A stretch of DNA of 64,000 nucleotides. Source: a virus. The stretch lies in the IMG/VR virus record IMGVR_UViG_3300048930_000991, positions 1 through 64,000 of that record; one strand, written 5' to 3'. The position numbers and the translations under genes are program-made. Positions within the stretch are counted from its first letter, which is position 1, and each line of letters opens with the position of its first letter. Below, in pieces: positions 12,506-21,645 of this stretch. The notes under the pieces were generated by a model. That model saw only the letters and a list, made by a program, of their open reading frames with translations. It was not told the DNA's origin and did no database searches.

Positions 12506-14680
12506 CTACCCCCGCACCGTGTCGTAGGCCGCCCCGCCGCGGCGGATGGCATCCAGCGTCATCGCCGAGGCCTGCCGCGCAATCTGCCCGGCGAGCAGCC
12601 GCAGCCGCGCCTCGACGCCGGCATCGGCGCCGCGGGCGTCAATGCTGATGCTGGTGTGGATGGTCGGGCCGCCGCCGCCCGGGGCGACACCATTCGGCAG
12701 CACCGTCCCCGCCTGGCGCGGCACAAACCATTCGGGGCCCCGTTCGCCCACGACATAGGGCTGGCCGGCGGCGACCGGCCCGCCCTCGGCACGGAACAGC
12801 CCGCCGAGCCAGGAGCCGACATCGGTGAACAGGCTGTCGAAGGAGATCCCGGAGAGCCCGGCCGAGACGGCATTGCCCAGCGGCTCGGTGATGACCTTGC
12901 GGGCAAGGATGCGGGTGATGTCCTGGAGCAGGCCCTCCAGCACGGAGGAGAACTTCTCGCCCTTGACGATCGCGTCCTCGAAGGCGCTGGAGAAGGTCAG
13001 GCCAAGCTCCCGCACGACGTCGGAGGTGCGTTCCGCGCCGCGCTGCACACGCTCCTCCGCCCGCTCCAGCTCCTCCATCGCCGCGACCGCCTCGCGCTGG
13101 ATGGTCTCGTCAGGCACCGCCCGGCCGGCCCGTTCAGCCCGCTCCACCAGGGTGGAGAGATTGGCGAGGCGGCGCTGGTAGCGCTCATGGGCGGTCTCGT
13201 TCTGCTGGATCAGCCGCTCGCGCTCGCGCAGCAACTCGTTCAGCTCCCGCTCGGCCTCGCGCGCCTCCCGCGCGCCCTCGTTGCTGGCACGGCGGACGGC
13301 GGCGACACGCGGCTCCAGGCGGCGCAGCGCCTCGTCGCGCTCCTGCAGGGCGAGCGTCTCGAGGCGGGTGCGCTCGACCGCGGTGACGCCACCCGCAGCC
13401 TCCGCCTCGCGCAGGCGGCGGACCCGCTCCTCGTATTCCCGGTTGATCCGGAAGCGGTCGTCGAGGTCGCGGCTGAGCTCCTGGACGTCCTGCGTCGCCC
13501 GGCGCCGACGGGCGTCGGCGGCCTGGGCGGCGGCACTCTCCTGCTCCGTCCGCTGACGCTCCCCGGCGGCCTGCTCGCCGCGAGTGATCTCGGCCTGGAG
13601 GTCCGTGTATTGCCGGCGCAACTCCTCCAGCCGGGCGGCGCGATCCACCCCGGCCTGCTGCTCGGCGGTACCGACCAGGCCAGGACGGATGCTGCCGCGC
13701 CGCACTGGGGCGGTGAGGCTGGCGCGGCCGTCCTGCTGGCTTTCCAGCCGGGCGATCTGCGCCGCCAGCGCCTCGGCCTGGCGGCGCATGCCGGCGAAGC
13801 GTTCCTCCTCGCTGAGCAGGCCCGCACCCTGGCGGACGCCGTCCACCGCGCGGGCGGCAGCCGAGAGCGCTCGGGCCAGCGCATTGGAGAGGCCGATGGC
13901 GCGATCGAGCTGGCCCAGAAAATTCTCGGTCGCCGCGGTCAGCTGCCCGAAGGCGCGGCCGAGGGAGAGCGGCGCACGGTCGAGCTCGGCGCCGAGCCGC
14001 TCGGCCGCGCGCAGCAGGGCCGGAAAGACCCGCTCGGCGGTGAGCTTGCCCTCGCTGCCAAGCTTGCGGAGCTCGCCGATGGAGACGCCGAGTTCCTTGG
14101 CCAGCCCCTCGGCCAGCAGCGGCATGGCCTCGAGGATGGAGCGCAGCTCGTCGCCCTGCAGCACGCCCGACGCGAGTGCCTGGGCGAGCTGCAGCGTAGC
14201 CGAGGAGATCTCCTGCGTGGATGCGCCGGAGACGATGGCGACGCGCTGCAGGCCGCCGACGAGGCGGACCACCTGGTCGGAGGTGGCGCCGATCTCGCGG
14301 GCGGCGATCGAGAAGCGCTGGAAGGCGTCGACACTCTCGGAGACCGCGACGCCGGTGGACAGTGCATTGTGGTACAGCGCCTCGTAGACTTGGCCGGCGC
14401 GCTCGACCGAGCCGGTGGCGTTCTGCAGGCGCGAGAGGCTCTGGGTGAGCGCGTCGCCGGCCTGGACCAGGGCACGGGCCGCCACCGCCACGCCGGCGAG
14501 CTGGATCCCCCGCACGGCGACGTCGAGCAGGTCGAGCGAGCGCGAAGCGCGTTCGGCGCCGCCCGTGATCTGGTCGAGCGAGCGCTGGCCGGTCTCGCCG
14601 ACCTCGCGCAGGCCAGCCTTGACCCGGGCGGCATCGTCCAGCGACAGGCGGACCGAGACGCGGCGGGTGGCGTCGGCCAT
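12506..14680 (-). CDS. Tail tape measure protein
   Basis: This 724-residue protein begins one base after the frameshifted chaperone ORF ends. It is rich in long alanine/arginine/glutamate helices (for example residues 380-600 with EREL, RERERL and ERAERAGRAV), predicted coiled coil. An N-terminal segment (about residues 60-260) resembles the conserved TMP core domain. A short Gly-rich hydrophobic region (NAVSAGLSGISFDSL) precedes a PYVVGERGPEWFVP motif common near tape measure C-termini. It sets tail length and enters the host envelope. Tape measure proteins of this class are usually 600-1,000 residues, so this one appears complete. Confidence 0.88.
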   Translation of the reverse strand: MADATRRVSVRLSLDDAARVKAGLREVGETGQRSLDQITGGAERASRSLDLLDVAVRGIQLAGVAVAARALVQAGDALTQSLSRLQNATGSVERAGQVYEALYHNALSTGVAVSESVDAFQRFSIAAREIGATSDQVVRLVGGLQRVAIVSGASTQEISSATLQLAQALASGVLQGDELRSILEAMPLLAEGLAKELGVSIGELRKLGSEGKLTAERVFPALLRAAERLGAELDRAPLSLGRAFGQLTAATENFLGQLDRAIGLSNALARALSAAARAVDGVRQGAGLLSEEERFAGMRRQAEALAAQIARLESQQDGRASLTAPVRRGSIRPGLVGTAEQQAGVDRAARLEELRRQYTDLQAEITRGEQAAGERQRTEQESAAAQAADARRRRATQDVQELSRDLDDRFRINREYEERVRRLREAEAAGGVTAVERTRLETLALQERDEALRRLEPRVAAVRRASNEGAREAREAERELNELLRERERLIQQNETAHERYQRRLANLSTLVERAERAGRAVPDETIQREAVAAMEELERAEERVQRGAERTSDVVRELGLTFSSAFEDAIVKGEKFSSVLEGLLQDITRILARKVITEPLGNAVSAGLSGISFDSLFTDVGSWLGGLFRAEGGPVAAGQPYVVGERGPEWFVPRQAGTVLPNGVAPGGGGPTIHTSISIDARGADAGVEARLRLLAGQIARQASAMTLDAIRRGGAAYDTVRG

Positions 14681-14681
14681 G

Positions 14682-15008
14682 TCAGGTCGTCTCCCCCTCG
14701 CGGCGGGCGGCAGCGCCCTCGGCCATGCCGCTGCGGATGGCGAGCAGCAGTTCGGCGGCGGCCCAGCCGGTGGCGCCCAGTTCCCGTGCCGCGGCGAGCG
14801 CGCCGGCGGTATCGAGCGTCAGGCCGGCCATGGTCGCCTCAGCGCAGGCCGTGCAGGCGGACCAGCAGGCATGGCCCTCGACGCTGCTGGGGGCATGGGC
14901 GGTGTAGGGGCAAGCGTCCGTGCAGTCGCGCTCGAAGGCGGCGCAGCCGCGGCAGTATTCGGGCCCGCGGCCAAAATGCCAGGCGGCGCGGACCCTTAGC
15001 CGTTTCCC
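14682..15008 (-). CDS. Cys-rich extension of the tail chaperone, expressed by -1 frameshift (GT product)
   Basis: Downstream of the chaperone stop there is a continuous open frame with no start codon of its own before 14853. It is entered from the GGGAAAC heptamer at 15008-15002 by a -1 shift. It encodes 106 residues ending GETT, one base before the tape measure ATG. The first half has seven cysteines (EYCRGC, RDCTDACPY, HACWSACTAC), suggesting bound metal; the second half is helical (ELGATGWAAAELLLAIRSG). The fusion would be about 230 residues. By analogy with lambda gpG-GT it would chaperone the tape measure. An internal ATG could give only the last 49 residues. Confidence 0.75.
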   Translation of the reverse strand, partial: GKRLRVRAAWHFGRGPEYCRGCAAFERDCTDACPYTAHAPSSVEGHACWSACTACAEATMAGLTLDTAGALAAARELGATGWAAAELLLAIRSGMAEGAAARREGETT

Positions 15009-15373
15009 TCGGCGGCCACCGCGGCGACCGGGGCGGTGGCGCGGTCCCAGAAGGCGGCCGCGATGTCGTCGAGGTCCATCAGGCGTTCGACCGCCTCGGG
15101 CGAGAGCGGCAGCGGCTTGCCCGCGGCATCACCGACGCCCTCCCAGCCAGTGACGGCGTGCCGCGCCAGCGCCTTGACGAGGAAGGCGAAGGAGAGGCCG
15201 CGCGACATGTCAGGGTCGAGGTCCGGATCGGCGAGGCGGATCGCGGCGAGACGGCGCGCGGCGGCGGCCTGCGCCGCGGCCATGACGGCGGTCGTCACCG
15301 GCCGGATCTCGACGCGCACGCCGCGCGGCAGGTCGAGCCAGTACGGCTCGGCCGGGAGGTCGAGTGTGAGCAT
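14996..15373 (-). CDS. Tail assembly chaperone (gpG-like)
   Basis: This 125-residue protein starts at MLTLDLPAEPYWLDLP. An in-frame ATG further up adds 18 poorly matching residues and is probably not used. The protein is Ala-rich and helical with an SPEAVERLMDLDDIAAAFWDRA C-terminal segment, typical of the small G-type chaperones that precede tape measure genes. The GGGAAAC slippery site lies in its last codons, so part of the product should be extended into the Cys-rich frame. The adjacent upstream DNA is the Lamassu insertion, which separates it from the tail tube gene. The operon promoter must therefore be reached across the cargo or supplied locally. Confidence 0.8.
   Translation of the reverse strand: MLTLDLPAEPYWLDLPRGVRVEIRPVTTAVMAAAQAAAARRLAAIRLADPDLDPDMSRGLSFAFLVKALARHAVTGWEGVGDAAGKPLPLSPEAVERLMDLDDIAAAFWDRATAPVAAVAAEGNG
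15002..15008 (-). other. Slippery heptamer for -1 programmed frameshift
   Basis: On the coding strand the sequence is G-GGA-AAC in the zero frame, exactly the X-XXY-YYZ pattern used for -1 slippage. It ends four bases before the zero-frame TAA stop. A 106-codon open frame continues in the -1 frame to the tape measure gene. Lambda uses GGGAAAG at the same place between G and T. The downstream G+C-rich stretch could form a stimulatory structure, but I did not fold it. Confidence 0.78.
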
Positions 15374-15669: not shown

Positions 15670-18096
15670 CTATGCAGCGACAAGCGACCTTTCCTCATGG
15701 TAGCTGTAGCGCCGCGAGAGACACCGTGTATCCTGCTGCGGCCCGCGCGTGAGCTCGAGCGTTAGTAGGCTGTCCGTCGGGAAAGCGGGGCTGAGTTCGA
15801 GGCGGAGATACTCGAACAGTTGACGATCGTGCACCGCGATAACCACCTGACGCTTGTGTTCCTTCGAAAGGGTGCGCAACAGCGCGGCGAGATGCGCGAT
15901 GTGGACGTCGTCCATCGACTGCACCGGATCATCGAGGATTAGCCAAGGCAGCGTCCGGGGCACCGAGAGGTGTAGTGCGAGGAAGAGCGTCAGGGCGGCA
16001 GTGTTGAGATTGCCGGCGCTGAGCATGGCGCCGGGCGTGCCTCCGACAGCGCCGCCGTCGCGGTGATCGGTGACGAGCCGAGGCTGGATCCGCTGGGTGC
16101 CCGCAGCAGGTATACGGAACGCGGGGATAAACGGCTCTCCGGGCGCCAGCCGGACGAAGAGGTCGCGCCATAGACGATTGAGGCGCTCGTTGAACTCCCT
16201 TCGGATTATGCCGGAGCGGATGGTGTCCACGGCGTCCCGGATCTTCGTGCCCTGCGCCCTGACCTTCTGAGCACGCTTCTGCGCGTCGTTCACCTTCTTG
16301 AGCGCCTGTTCGTTCTCGCCGAGGCCCTCGGAAATGCTGTCGCTCCGAGCCTGCAGGGTTCTGATCGTCGCCACGGCTTCCCGTCCCCTGCGACGTGCGG
16401 CGAGCCTGTCCTCCAGCCGCCTTAATTCAGTGTCGAGGAGAAGCTGAATTCTTGCACCGGCTCCCACCGGATCCTCTCCGTCCGCCACCGGGTCTCCCGC
16501 GACGGTCCGAGCGAAATCCGACAACGTCTGCCTTGCTGCGGTCAGGGCGACACTACGGGACTGCGCCTCGGTCACCGCTCGCCTAGCCACCACTTCGGCG
16601 GTGCGCAAGCGAGCCCCTTCCCTCAGCGTGTCAATCATGTTTGCGAGTTCCGTCCGGGCCGCATGCAGGTCGGCTACGGCGCGATCGAGACCAGCAAGCG
16701 TTCGGTCATCTAGCACCGCCTGTTCCAGCGCCGCGATCTCTCGATCAAGCCGGTCTACCTGCGTCTGGGCTTCTGTCCTGGTACGTCCGAGCGCGAGAAG
16801 CCGCTGAGCCGATGACGATAGGCTCCGGACCTTGGCATGGACGTGCTCGACGAGGTTGCCGTCATGAACCTCCGCATAGTCGCGGTCGCACACCGGGCAG
16901 GTGTCTCCATCTATGAACGACGTAAGTTCCGAGAGGATGGAACCCAGACCGCCCGATGAGGCCGGAATATCAGCCATTTCGGCATCGATCGTCTTCACTC
17001 GGGACCGCGCGACTTCGACCTCTCCCTGCGCAGTCCCAAGTCGCTCGGCGTCAGTCTTGGCCTTGGTGCTCCGGGCCGACGCGTGCTCGCTTCGCACGGC
17101 CAGCTGTCGCAACGCCGCGTCCGAGAACGCCGCCATGTCGCCCGGCAGGGATATATCCGAGAGCAGCGCCTCGATGCGTGCCCTGAGCGCCAAGTAGCGT
17201 TCCCCGTTCGCCGCCTCCCAGTGGCCGTAGGCGCCGGGCGCCGCAGCGGTGGGATCGGCTATTGATCCAGCGGCCGGCTGGGCCTTCGCCGCCTCCGCGA
17301 TCTCGCGGCGGATCGATGCCAGCTGGCGTCGGTGATCGGTGATCGACGCGAGCGCTTGTTCGTCCTCGTCCGGCCTGAGTTCCGCCTCGATCGCGCCGAG
17401 CGTGCGGTCGTCGAGTTCCAACGACAGATCGAGCGCAGCGGCTGCACTTCGGATCGTCACCATCTGGTGGCCGATATCCTTGGTGACCTGGAGCAGGCTG
17501 GTCCTCTGATCCTCGATCAGGGCATCGATCCGCGTCTTCTCTAACTCGTTGTCGGACCACCCATCGACGATCTTGCGAACGTTGCGGACGTCTCCAAGCG
17601 GCTTGAGGCCGGACTCGATGGCATCGAGGCGGTCGAGACGAAGGAGCTCGCCCACGAACCGCGCGAGCGGCGAGTCCGCGCCGCTGCCGGAATCCTGGTA
17701 GATCTGCAGCAGCTGACCGAGCAGCGCCTGCGGAAGGTAGCTCCGCTCGCTGAAGAAGGTGGTGAGAGGCCCGTCCAGCGGGATGGCCGACGTTACCCCC
17801 TCTGCCGACAGCGTCGCGCGGTACAGCGCCGAGGTGTTGCCTATCGTCGTCTTCACCGCCACGCTGCCCTGTGCGGCCGAGCGGTGCATGAGCTGCGTGG
17901 CAAAGTCGGGATCCGCACGCCGCAGCGACTGCACGCTTCCGGTCAGCGCCAGTTCGATAGCAAAGAGAAGGCTCGTCTTGCCGGCACCGTTCTCGCCGTG
18001 GATGAGTACGACCTGGGCATCGAGCGGGGCGTGCACGTGTCCACGGATGCTGCGGAAGTCGACGACGTCGAGTTCTTTGAGAAGAAGGTCGGTCAC
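15670..18096 (-). CDS. lmuB: Lamassu SMC-like ATPase LmuB (zinc-hook)
   Basis: This 808-residue protein is a RecF/Rad50-type ABC ATPase. Walker A GENGAGKTS is at residues 34-42. Two long helical arms flank a zinc hook, CPVC, near residues 399-402. The ABC signature region MLSAGNLNTAAL is near 690, Walker B LPWLILDDPVQSMDD near 722, and a switch histidine in VVIAVHDRQLF near 750. GTG start; its start overlaps the stop of the middle gene (GTGA). In Lamassu systems this subunit senses foreign DNA ends or structures and releases the effector. The length and architecture are normal for LmuB. Nearest alternatives are general Rad50-like repair ATPases, but the three-gene context argues against them. 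Confidence 0.85.
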   Translation of the reverse strand: MTDLLLKELDVVDFRSIRGHVHAPLDAQVVLIHGENGAGKTSLLFAIELALTGSVQSLRRADPDFATQLMHRSAAQGSVAVKTTIGNTSALYRATLSAEGVTSAIPLDGPLTTFFSERSYLPQALLGQLLQIYQDSGSGADSPLARFVGELLRLDRLDAIESGLKPLGDVRNVRKIVDGWSDNELEKTRIDALIEDQRTSLLQVTKDIGHQMVTIRSAAAALDLSLELDDRTLGAIEAELRPDEDEQALASITDHRRQLASIRREIAEAAKAQPAAGSIADPTAAAPGAYGHWEAANGERYLALRARIEALLSDISLPGDMAAFSDAALRQLAVRSEHASARSTKAKTDAERLGTAQGEVEVARSRVKTIDAEMADIPASSGGLGSILSELTSFIDGDTCPVCDRDYAEVHDGNLVEHVHAKVRSLSSSAQRLLALGRTRTEAQTQVDRLDREIAALEQAVLDDRTLAGLDRAVADLHAARTELANMIDTLREGARLRTAEVVARRAVTEAQSRSVALTAARQTLSDFARTVAGDPVADGEDPVGAGARIQLLLDTELRRLEDRLAARRRGREAVATIRTLQARSDSISEGLGENEQALKKVNDAQKRAQKVRAQGTKIRDAVDTIRSGIIRREFNERLNRLWRDLFVRLAPGEPFIPAFRIPAAGTQRIQPRLVTDHRDGGAVGGTPGAMLSAGNLNTAALTLFLALHLSVPRTLPWLILDDPVQSMDDVHIAHLAALLRTLSKEHKRQVVIAVHDRQLFEYLRLELSPAFPTDSLLTLELTRGPQQDTRCLSRRYSYHEERSLVAA

Positions 18097-18704
18097 GCTT
18101 TCTCCTCCTTATCCCGTAAAGCGGCATCGATCAGTCGGGCGATCGCGGTGGTCACGGCCTCCTCGCCGTGCTCCGCCGCCGCCATGATCGCCTCGATGGT
18201 ACCGCTGTCCACAGTATTCGCCAGCGCAGCCCGCAGCTGTTCCTGCGCCGATCCGGCTTGGTCCTCCGGACCCGACTGCGGGATCGAGAGTGGCAACAGC
18301 ACCCGGATGCTATCTTCCAGCCGGCGGAGGTCCGGCGTGCCGTCGTCACAGAGGGGAAGCGTGTCGACGTGCAGGACGCGGGCCGTTTCTGCGAGCGATT
18401 CCATGTCGCTCGAGAGCGCAGCGCCGGCCAGCACCACGGTCAGGACATATCTGGATGCGGTTACATCGAGAGCACGGCTCATCGCTTGAACGCGGTGACG
18501 GACGCGAGCGCCGTCGCTGTCTCCGAAGTCTCCTGCCGTTGTGTCGATCAAAAGTACAAGATCCAGCGCGCGCCCGCGCCTGCCACGCAGCGCTCCCGTG
18601 AACTGGAACTCGACGCCGGCGATCCTGAATGGAGTCGGAAGATCGTCATACTCAGCCTCGTGGAGGCGCTGCCTTATTGCGGCTATCAGCGGGGAGTCGA
18701 TCAT
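18093..18704 (-). CDS. lmuC: Lamassu middle component LmuC-like
   Basis: This 203-residue protein has no motif I can name. The N-terminal half is a mixed alpha/beta fold (LDLVLLIDTTAGDF, SRYVLTVVLAGAAL) and the C-terminal half is helical and acidic (EQLRAALANTVDSGTIEAIMAAAEHGEEAV). It is locked between the SIR2 gene (ATGA overlap) and the ATPase gene (GTGA overlap). Small, poorly conserved middle proteins with exactly this position are typical of Lamassu (DdmB in Vibrio) and of ABC-three-component systems. There they bridge the effector and the SMC dimer. The name is inferred from position and size. Confidence 0.7.
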   Translation of the reverse strand: MIDSPLIAAIRQRLHEAEYDDLPTPFRIAGVEFQFTGALRGRRGRALDLVLLIDTTAGDFGDSDGARVRHRVQAMSRALDVTASRYVLTVVLAGAALSSDMESLAETARVLHVDTLPLCDDGTPDLRRLEDSIRVLLPLSIPQSGPEDQAGSAQEQLRAALANTVDSGTIEAIMAAAEHGEEAVTTAIARLIDAALRDKEEKA

Positions 18705-20455
18705 AGCAGCACCTCCGCCACGAACGTCGCGCGCAGCCCATCGATGTCGCCGGATACGCGCAGCATCTCGCCGACGCTGACATGGGATGGCTCCAGCGTT
18801 CCCGTCCTACCAGGTGCGCTGCCGGGCGACCTGCCTGATCGAACCGCCATCGTTCGATGCCACGTGTCGTCCGAATGAATCACGAGGGCGTTGTCGTTTG
18901 CGTACGCTCCATCCGACTGGAGACGGATTGCCTCCGACACCGACTTCACGAGGAAGACGGGACGGATCGGCGCGCCGGGACGATCGGCCTGAAGCGATGC
19001 CACGCCAGCGGTCAGCTCATCACCGGTCGGCGGCTTGACGGACCATTTGCCTGAAGATCGACCATGCTCCAGTAGGGCCAACGTGACGGCGAGATGGCCG
19101 AGGTTCGAGCTTCGGGCGTTCTGATCGGCGGCTAGAATCGCGGCAGTCGACTGGCTGACTTGCTCGTATGCGGTGGGATCACGCTGAAGGGTACCGCCGC
19201 GGAAGACCGACAGAAGTCGCGACCAGTATGCGATTCCCTGGTTCACCGCGGGCGTACGGTCTTCGGCGACGGCGTCGACGGTCGCGCCAGCAGCGAAGAG
19301 GTCACGCAGATCGTTCAGCGATTCAGTCAGCTCGGCGCAGAGCGCGGCCTTGCCGATGGCCGCTAGCGCGAGTTCCATGAGGCAGGCTAGCTTGTCGGTT
19401 ATTGTCTTGAGCACCAACGCGATCAAGACCTGTTCGCCCCAGGCCCGCATGTGACAGGCACGGTGTATGTCGACAATGTTGCCGTTGTAGGCGCCACCGT
19501 AGACCAGGCGCAGGACATCGACCTGCCCCTGCTTGATCTCGTCCTCGCAGAAGACGTGTCCCGGGGCGTCCGGTTCGCAAGGCCATGGCCAGGGATTTAT
19601 GGCCGTTGCCTCGGTGAAGACGGCCTGAAGGTTCATGTCCTGGATCGACAGGCCTAGCACCAGCGACTTCTTGTTCGTTGCCACGTCGCGGACCGCGTTC
19701 CGCATCGCCGCGAAGTCCTGATTGTAGGGCCACCTGCCTATTTGCGTGTGACTACCGGTAAGGAATCGTCGATATTTTGCCTCGTCCTGCTGCGCATGCT
19801 CGACGCACCCGTGGAATTTGAGCAGCGTGGCCTTGCCAGGCGGATCGCGAAGCTGACCAGGATCGACGACGATCTGCAGCAGTCCGGGCACGCTGCCGCC
19901 GAGACGCCGGACGGCGGCCTCGATGAAGCCGTCCCAGTTCGCGGAGGCGATCGTCTGAACCGCGCCCTCAAGCACCAGGATCGCGATGCACAGGTGCGCG
20001 GCTGCCGGCGGGGCCGGGTGCGCGAACTGCCGTCGGATGTCAATCGCGTTCCAAAGGATGAAGTCTGAAGGCTCGTCCGGAATGCGGATATCAAGGATAC
20101 GGGAGTAGCTGTTCCAGAGCGTGTCGACGATCTGCTTGCGGAGCGCCCATTCGTCGAACGGCCGGTGCAGGTCGGATCCGATCGTGGCGCGATCCAGACC
20201 AGCAAACCTGAGTGCCTCGTCCAGCGCCGGCAGGTAATCCGCGGCAATCGCCGGATTTGAGGTGCATGCCCGAATATACTCCATCGCTGCAGCGATCAGC
20301 CCGCCAAGGCTTGGCGCCCGTCTCGAGATGCCGGAGCCGATCCACAGCGCGAACTCGCCGTTCTCGACCGCCTTCGCGGTCGATGCGAATTCCCCGTCGA
20401 GCTTCGCCAGTACCTGGCGCACAGTTATGTCAGTCGCGCTGGGCACAAGACCCAC
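18701..20455 (-). CDS. lmuA: SIR2-domain effector, Lamassu LmuA (Sir2 type)
   Basis: This 584-residue protein has an N-terminal SIR2-like fold: GSGIS at residues 40-44 for the dinucleotide loop, SANWDGFIE at 171-179 with the Asn and Asp that hold NAD, KFHG at 213-216 with the catalytic His215, and VLGLSIQDMNL near 266-276. The remaining 300 residues are helical and not recognised. Defence SIR2 proteins deplete NAD+ once activated, causing abortive infection. GTG start, with GGGGAGG placed well upstream. It is the first gene of a three-gene coupled operon with the middle protein and SMC ATPase, which matches the Lamassu-Sir2 subtype. Confidence 0.82.
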   Translation of the reverse strand: MGLVPSATDITVRQVLAKLDGEFASTAKAVENGEFALWIGSGISRRAPSLGGLIAAAMEYIRACTSNPAIAADYLPALDEALRFAGLDRATIGSDLHRPFDEWALRKQIVDTLWNSYSRILDIRIPDEPSDFILWNAIDIRRQFAHPAPPAAAHLCIAILVLEGAVQTIASANWDGFIEAAVRRLGGSVPGLLQIVVDPGQLRDPPGKATLLKFHGCVEHAQQDEAKYRRFLTGSHTQIGRWPYNQDFAAMRNAVRDVATNKKSLVLGLSIQDMNLQAVFTEATAINPWPWPCEPDAPGHVFCEDEIKQGQVDVLRLVYGGAYNGNIVDIHRACHMRAWGEQVLIALVLKTITDKLACLMELALAAIGKAALCAELTESLNDLRDLFAAGATVDAVAEDRTPAVNQGIAYWSRLLSVFRGGTLQRDPTAYEQVSQSTAAILAADQNARSSNLGHLAVTLALLEHGRSSGKWSVKPPTGDELTAGVASLQADRPGAPIRPVFLVKSVSEAIRLQSDGAYANDNALVIHSDDTWHRTMAVRSGRSPGSAPGRTGTLEPSHVSVGEMLRVSGDIDGLRATFVAEVLL

Positions 20456-20688: not shown

Positions 20689-21645
20689 TCACGCATACTC
20701 GGTCCCGGCTTGCTGGTTCTTGAGCACCGCCGTCATCATTCGGGTGGCGGTCGCGTTGTAGGCGGCCCGGAACTCGAACGCCGCCTCGACGCCGCCCGGC
20801 CCTTCGACCGGCGTCTTCGCCAGCGCCAAATAGACCTCGTGCAGCGTGAAGGTCAGGCTGCGGTTGGCGTCGATCGTGTAGCTGAAGGCGAACTCTGCAG
20901 CGGCGTTGTTCTGCGCCTGCGTCAGCAGCGTGGTGTCCGCGAAACGCGCGGTGATCTGCCCGGTGGCGCGCGCGATGCCGGGATCCACGCCCTCGACCTT
21001 CCGGTCGGCGCGGATGGTGCGCACCATCTCCATGCCGTTGGCGTAGGTGAGCCGTGCCCCGGTCACCTGCGCGAGCGCCGAGCCGTTCCGACTGATCGTC
21101 CCCTGCGCCTTGTGGAAGGCCGTGTAGGCGGCGCTGGTCGGCGTGCCGCCTGAACTCGAGGCGCCGCGCGTCGAGCCCTGCCCCATCAGCCCGAAGGTCG
21201 CGGTGGCGGGCCCGGTCGGCGAGAAGTCGATCTCCAGCGTGTCGGCGCGCACCCCGGTGCAGAGATCGTAGTTCGGCACGTCCGGATAGCCGATCTCGAC
21301 GCTGTTCGAGGGCAGCGCCGCGGCGCCCGAGCCGAAGCTGTGGATGAAGTTTGGGCTGGTGCCGGTGGTGGCAGGCGGGCCGAGCAACAGGCGCAGCCAG
21401 TGCCCTATGTTGATCAGGTCCACCGGCACCACCGCCTGGCCCTGCACGGTGACGGTATCGAGGAAGGGTGCCGCCGGATCGCGGCTGCTGCCGACGCCGA
21501 TGACGTCGGCATCGAGCAACGGCTGCTCGGCACCGAGGTCGCAGGAGAGGAAGGGCATACGCAGCCAGTCGCCCGCGGGCGCGGTGCCGTAGGTCGCCTC
21601 GGGGATCATGAGCAGACGGCAATTGGCGCCGATGGCACGGGGCAT
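20689..21645 (-). CDS. Major tail tube protein
   Basis: This 318-residue protein starts MPRAIGANCRLLMIPEATYG, a common opening of siphovirus tail tube proteins of this type. It is beta-rich, with alternating hydrophobic strands (TLEIDFSPTGPATATFGLMG, NRSLTFTLHEVYLALAKTP) and a C-terminal EFRAAYNATATRMMTAVLKN segment. It is preceded by tail completion genes and followed, after the inserted defence operon, by the tail chaperone. Phage tube genes are normally adjacent to the chaperone. The gene itself looks intact. Confidence 0.8.
   Translation of the reverse strand: MPRAIGANCRLLMIPEATYGTAPAGDWLRMPFLSCDLGAEQPLLDADVIGVGSSRDPAAPFLDTVTVQGQAVVPVDLINIGHWLRLLLGPPATTGTSPNFIHSFGSGAAALPSNSVEIGYPDVPNYDLCTGVRADTLEIDFSPTGPATATFGLMGQGSTRGASSSGGTPTSAAYTAFHKAQGTISRNGSALAQVTGARLTYANGMEMVRTIRADRKVEGVDPGIARATGQITARFADTTLLTQAQNNAAAEFAFSYTIDANRSLTFTLHEVYLALAKTPVEGPGGVEAAFEFRAAYNATATRMMTAVLKNQQAGTEYA

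Follow-up and report, generated by a model that had tools for sequence, protein, structure and literature searches.

In phage lambda, the tail genes follow the order tail tube, G, T (reached by a −1 frameshift) and tape measure, where G attaches to the tape measure protein and GT, through its T part, to the tail tube protein, the two products being made at a G:GT ratio of about 30:1 (PMC5009743). HK97 possesses a comparable pair, as gp13/gp14 stand in its GenBank record as a tail assembly chaperone with a −1 frameshift. A third system is gp16/gp17 of RcFrancesLouise and kin (11 Rhodobacter phage records), in which a GGGAAAC heptamer is followed by an extension of the pattern WHFG-x-G-YCxxC…C…C and then by the tape measure gene. 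In RcFrancesLouise, gp17 carries the annotation tail assembly chaperone and is a CDS joined from two pieces, again at GGGAAAC, and in both Rhodobacter phage records examined the chaperone consists of a short CDS plus such a joined CDS.

The locus described here lies on the minus strand of a viral DNA stretch of 64 kb (hereafter, the window), and its features are collected in the table below. The chaperone gene lies downstream of the tail tube gene and immediately ahead of the tape measure gene, as assigned by PHROG 313, PF18906 and PF20155, respectively, and its 3' end reads GAG-GGA-AAC-GGC-TAA, thus carrying an in-phase slippery heptamer as an earlier note on this DNA had claimed, with three bases (GGC) rather than the four counted there before the stop. 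Since the 64 kb contain three copies of GGGAAAC, counting both strands, an in-phase copy at this place is not expected by chance (approximately 1e-4 for the last chaperone codons, as an estimate). The −1 frame stays open for 106 codons after GGG AAA (108 counted from the heptamer) and a single base separates its stop from the tape measure ATG (TGACATG), while no ATG, GTG or TTG is found in this frame from 20 codons before to 24 after the heptamer; on all these points the earlier reading stood. Furthermore, the frame indicated by GC content at the three codon positions is at first that of the chaperone, changes to −1 at about 14970-14790 and then to the tape measure phase past 14680, and this change after the heptamer provides independent evidence that the −1 frame is coding.

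Features of the chaperone locus in the window (all positions on the minus strand unless the cell is empty)
Feature	Position	Strand	Details and basis
Tail assembly chaperone (gpG-like)	14996..15373	-	125 aa, ATG 15373, stop TAA 14998-14996; PHROG 313 'Tail assembly chaperone' E=1.2e-16; relatives annotated alike
Slippery heptamer G-GGA-AAC	15002..15008	-	GGGAAAC in phase with the chaperone frame
6-nt spacer GGCTAA, zero-frame stop inside	14996..15001	-	window sequence
Predicted stimulatory hairpin	14961..14995	-	9-bp GC stem, 14995-14987 with 14969-14961
Predicted inner stem of the hairpin	14984-14982 with 14972-14970	-	folding prediction
−1 frame extension (T-like domain)	14682..15008	-	108 codons from GGG AAA, TGA 14684-14682; pN/pS, relatives
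Cys4 motif C-x2-C-x6-C-x3-C	14910..14954	-	extension residues 19, 22, 29, 33; invariant, 94/94 sequences
Predicted frame junction in the fusion protein			…EGKRLRV…
Tape measure protein	12506..14680	-	PF20155 E=5.9e-51; TIGR02675
Tail tube protein	20689..21645	-	PF18906 E=9e-53; inferred partner of the T-like domain

Taken with the conservation of the heptamer, the frame-specific selection, the downstream hairpin and the GenBank precedents described below, this arrangement strongly supports a programmed −1 ribosomal frameshift, a reading that is firm on computational grounds, and we consider it nearly certain that it is of the lambda G/GT type, yielding a short G-like protein and a fusion with a Cys4 T-like domain. 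The majority of ribosomes would end at the TAA and release the 125-residue G-like protein, whereas a minority, paused at the GC-rich hairpin 6 nt downstream, would move back by one base at GGGAAAC and so produce a fusion protein of about 230 residues, the last 106 of which would form the T-like domain with the Cys4 motif. If lambda is a guide, the G part may coat the tape measure protein and the T part may bring in tail tube subunits.

The likeness to lambda, which the earlier note had pointed out, is right in kind, as a GGGAAA-type heptamer lies near the end of G and T runs up to or into the tape measure gene. However, the lambda heptamer is GGGAAAG and lies farther from the G stop (22 nt), its T extension lacks cysteines, and no sequence match to lambda was found for the window extension. 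Likewise, HK97 gp14 has no cysteine past the shift site. In fold, the chaperone model of the window bears a weak resemblance to HK97 gp13 (2ob9), which ranks third with E 0.76 and probability 0.41. The Rhodobacter phages also differ in several respects: their proteins share approximately 30-47% identity with those of the window, their zero-frame stop follows 97 nt past the heptamer instead of 10, the hairpin has another sequence, and the tube and chaperone genes are adjacent. A fourth relation is to Pfam DUF7697 (PF24752), which matches divergent members of the extension family (L243, L245, L067, L066 and L242) in their C-terminal half, with up to E 1.5e-23 and 82.9 bits, but not the window extension itself (gathering score 27 bits). 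This 52-residue model, to which Pfam assigns no function, is devoid of the Cys4 half, probably since gene callers start at internal codons.

The earlier note had drawn attention to seven cysteines in the first half of the extension, and there are indeed seven in its first 55 residues. Only four of them (C19, C22, C29, C33) are conserved throughout the 94 aligned extensions, together with K2, R3, W10, H11, F12, G15, Y18 and W49, whereas C48 occurs in 72%, C55 in 87% and C52 in 2% of the sequences; the conserved unit is the Cys4, rather than a seven-cysteine domain. The Cys4 and W10-H11-F12 are constant across hosts spanning Acetobacteraceae, Rhodobacter and cyanobacteria. An AlphaFold model, for which a smaller alignment was used with the rows from named records left out, folds the extension into a compact helical domain that includes a short hairpin (mean pLDDT 89.8), suggesting that it can fold on its own. 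Searched alone against Pfam, NCBIfam and PHROGs, the window extension had no accepted family match; a Foldseek comparison of its model with the PDB and viral models gave no significant match, and PDB sequence profiles for the chaperone and the extension returned nothing credible. Judging by the hit lists and titles among open-licence papers, there was no report of a cysteine or zinc domain in tail assembly chaperones, nor one for DUF7697.

The four cysteines likely form a metal site, and judging from their invariance and spacing the ion they hold would most likely be a structural zinc. A rival to this assignment is that the cysteines might instead act through disulfides, through Fe-S binding or without any metal, as could be proposed from the Fer4-type Pfam models, which match the extension weakly (E 0.014-0.054, below cut-off), and from the additional cysteines 48 and 55 in most close relatives. 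However, no Fer4 model passes its curated threshold, the invariant cysteines are only four and come as CxxC and Cx3C pairs, and an assembly factor should act in the reducing cytoplasm, so that we regard these options together as rather unlikely, though worth keeping in mind beside the zinc site.

Relatives of the extension were found by tblastn among phage records in 11 Rhodobacter capsulatus phages, one Synechococcus phage, one Nostoc phage and one gut phage. Many more loci came from viral and genome collections, where the named genome matches are mostly Acetobacteraceae, for instance Roseomonas, Falsiroseomonas, Neoroseomonas and Siccirubricoccus. After removal of duplicates, the distance from the heptamer (GGGAAAC, AAAAAAC or AAAAAAA) to the W of WHF is exactly 27 nt in 168 of 168 distinct intact loci, a set retrieved mainly via the extension. 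The heptamer is GGGAAAC in the two Rhodobacter records examined, AAAAAAC in the gut phage and an A run at the same place in the Nostoc record, and is missing only from L056 and L145, which represent one and the same contig edge.

Chaperone-bearing relatives that had lost the heptamer, or had accumulated stops in the −1 frame, would argue against a programmed shift, as the earlier note had set out, but the relatives do not bear such a refutation out. Among 80 loci fetched with the chaperone alone, and hence less biased, 79 keep GGGAAAC 10 nt (from its start to the stop codon) ahead of the zero-frame stop with the −1 frame open, and the Cys4 extension follows in all 76 with enough sequence. The sole exception, L299 from a metagenome contig, carries GTGAAAC, a one-base change behind which the −1 frame is still open (junction GGAGTGAAACGGAT), and this may be either a natural mutant or a sequencing error.

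Selection acts on the codons of the shift site as well as on the frames. The heptamer uses GGA and AAA in 149 of 149 close relatives, as opposed to 3.6% of the glycine and 4.3% of the lysine codons in these genes, and the GAG codon just ahead of it is likewise invariant in the 149. In the extension, pN/pS amounts to 0.29 in the −1 frame and to 1.5-1.6 in the other two, and in the chaperone to 0.25 in its own frame and to 1.5-2.2 in the others, so for the extension the −1 frame alone shows purifying selection. In principle, the −1 ORF might be a gene of its own that ribosomes enter without any frameshift, by coupled translation or re-initiation where it overlaps the chaperone stop, as 95 of 150 relatives end the zero frame with TGA inside CTGA and the overlapping CTG recalls coupled ATGA junctions. 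However, in the other 55, including the window, the stop is TAA, which leaves CTA (once ATA) and hence no start codon, and the invariant GGA and AAA are not needed for re-initiation. Independent initiation is unlikely, furthermore, because ATG, GTG and TTG are absent near the junction in 160 of the 168 loci and because in 8 loci a −1 frame stop lies at most 15 nt upstream of the heptamer; altogether, we give re-initiation hardly any credence against the programmed frameshift.

Downstream of the heptamer, a 48-nt segment starting 6 nt from its first base exceeds synonymous shuffles in stability by an average of 5.1 kcal/mol, with excess stability in 98% of 133 loci, and it is the most extreme of 40 segments along the gene (runner-up −3.65). 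RNA folding, which had been suggested as a check on the frameshift, supports it across these loci, but for the window alone the hairpin, which is GC-rich and starts 6 nt past the heptamer, is of ordinary stability (z −0.4 to −0.6 versus composition shuffles and −0.85 versus synonymous shuffles). Close relatives display two hairpin registers, one base apart, which make an RNAalifold consensus unusable, and base pairs were therefore counted at a fixed register. On 23 distinct divergent sequences this gave a covariation score of 0.184 versus 0.134 ± 0.014 for shuffles, none of 500 being as high, and the true position exceeded every slid version; one pair, for instance, is GC in 10 and CG in 8 of these sequences. 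The second register gave a similar covariation result. Individually, 8 of 15 divergent loci fold at p<0.05, while the L245-L248 group and L053 have no hairpin folding signal. Spacer and stem match a standard −1 frameshift stimulator.

The place of the hairpin also bears on whether the frame changes on the ribosome at all. Transcriptional slippage could be imagined for the distant relatives with AAAAAAC or AAAAAAA, whose runs of six, seven or more A might let RNA polymerase slip, but in the GGGAAAC of the window and its 149 close relatives the longest homopolymer is three bases, and a hairpin at a conserved position past a 6-7 nt spacer is what ribosomal slippage leads one to expect; slippage of the polymerase accordingly seems a very remote prospect. 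Sequencing error or a decayed gene was rejected in view of selection and conservation.

As a mechanism, the ribosomal frameshift joins a well-known class, and Rhodobacter phage records already show it as a joined gene. The Cys4 T domain appears to be undescribed in the sources searched, but it varies one part and does not amount to a new mechanism. It adds a conserved and probably metal-binding version of T, a domain whose function is poorly understood, and mutants of the cysteines would offer a direct route to the role of T in tail assembly. In addition, Pfam, NCBIfam and most annotation lack the first half of the extension family, as the extension has no start codon ahead of it, and the hairpin adds a covariation-backed stimulatory element in GC-rich hosts. 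Going one step further, we incline, by a modest degree, to regard the extension as the founding member of a metal-binding (Cys4, WHFG) T-domain superfamily that would be shared by Acetobacteraceae prophages and by phages of Rhodobacter, of cyanobacteria and of the gut and would always be reached via −1 frameshifting, such that the start of tail-tube assembly would depend on a zinc site missing in lambda and HK97.

Two observations stand apart from the above. In one relative (L135, 3474 onward), the −1 frame stays open for 245 codons, past the usual stop, compared with the usual approximately 110. The second concerns the space between the tail tube and chaperone genes, which in the window is occupied by a 5.3 kb cargo insert. 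Inside this gap lies a minus-strand cassette of about 4.8 kb (15670-20455) with three genes, encoding a SIR2_2 protein of 584 aa, a 203-aa protein and an SMC/RecF-like ATPase of 808 aa that matches LmuB in PADLOC (E 1.9e-33), and the cassette resembles a SIR2-type Lamassu defence system on a prophage. Across 220 fetched loci with both genes, some of them redundant, the gap ranges from none to over 3 kb (for instance L143:1349-2833, L149:431-2860 and L122:524-3007), and 175 distinct gap regions hold about 195 mostly unrelated ORF clusters in an ORF-level survey in which some spurious ORFs are to be expected. Among 88 gap representatives, PADLOC found LmuB in five, plus a retron-type reverse transcriptase, PtuA and others, and Pfam found GmrSD; the gap looks like a hypervariable cargo and defence hotspot within the tail operon of Acetobacteraceae prophages.
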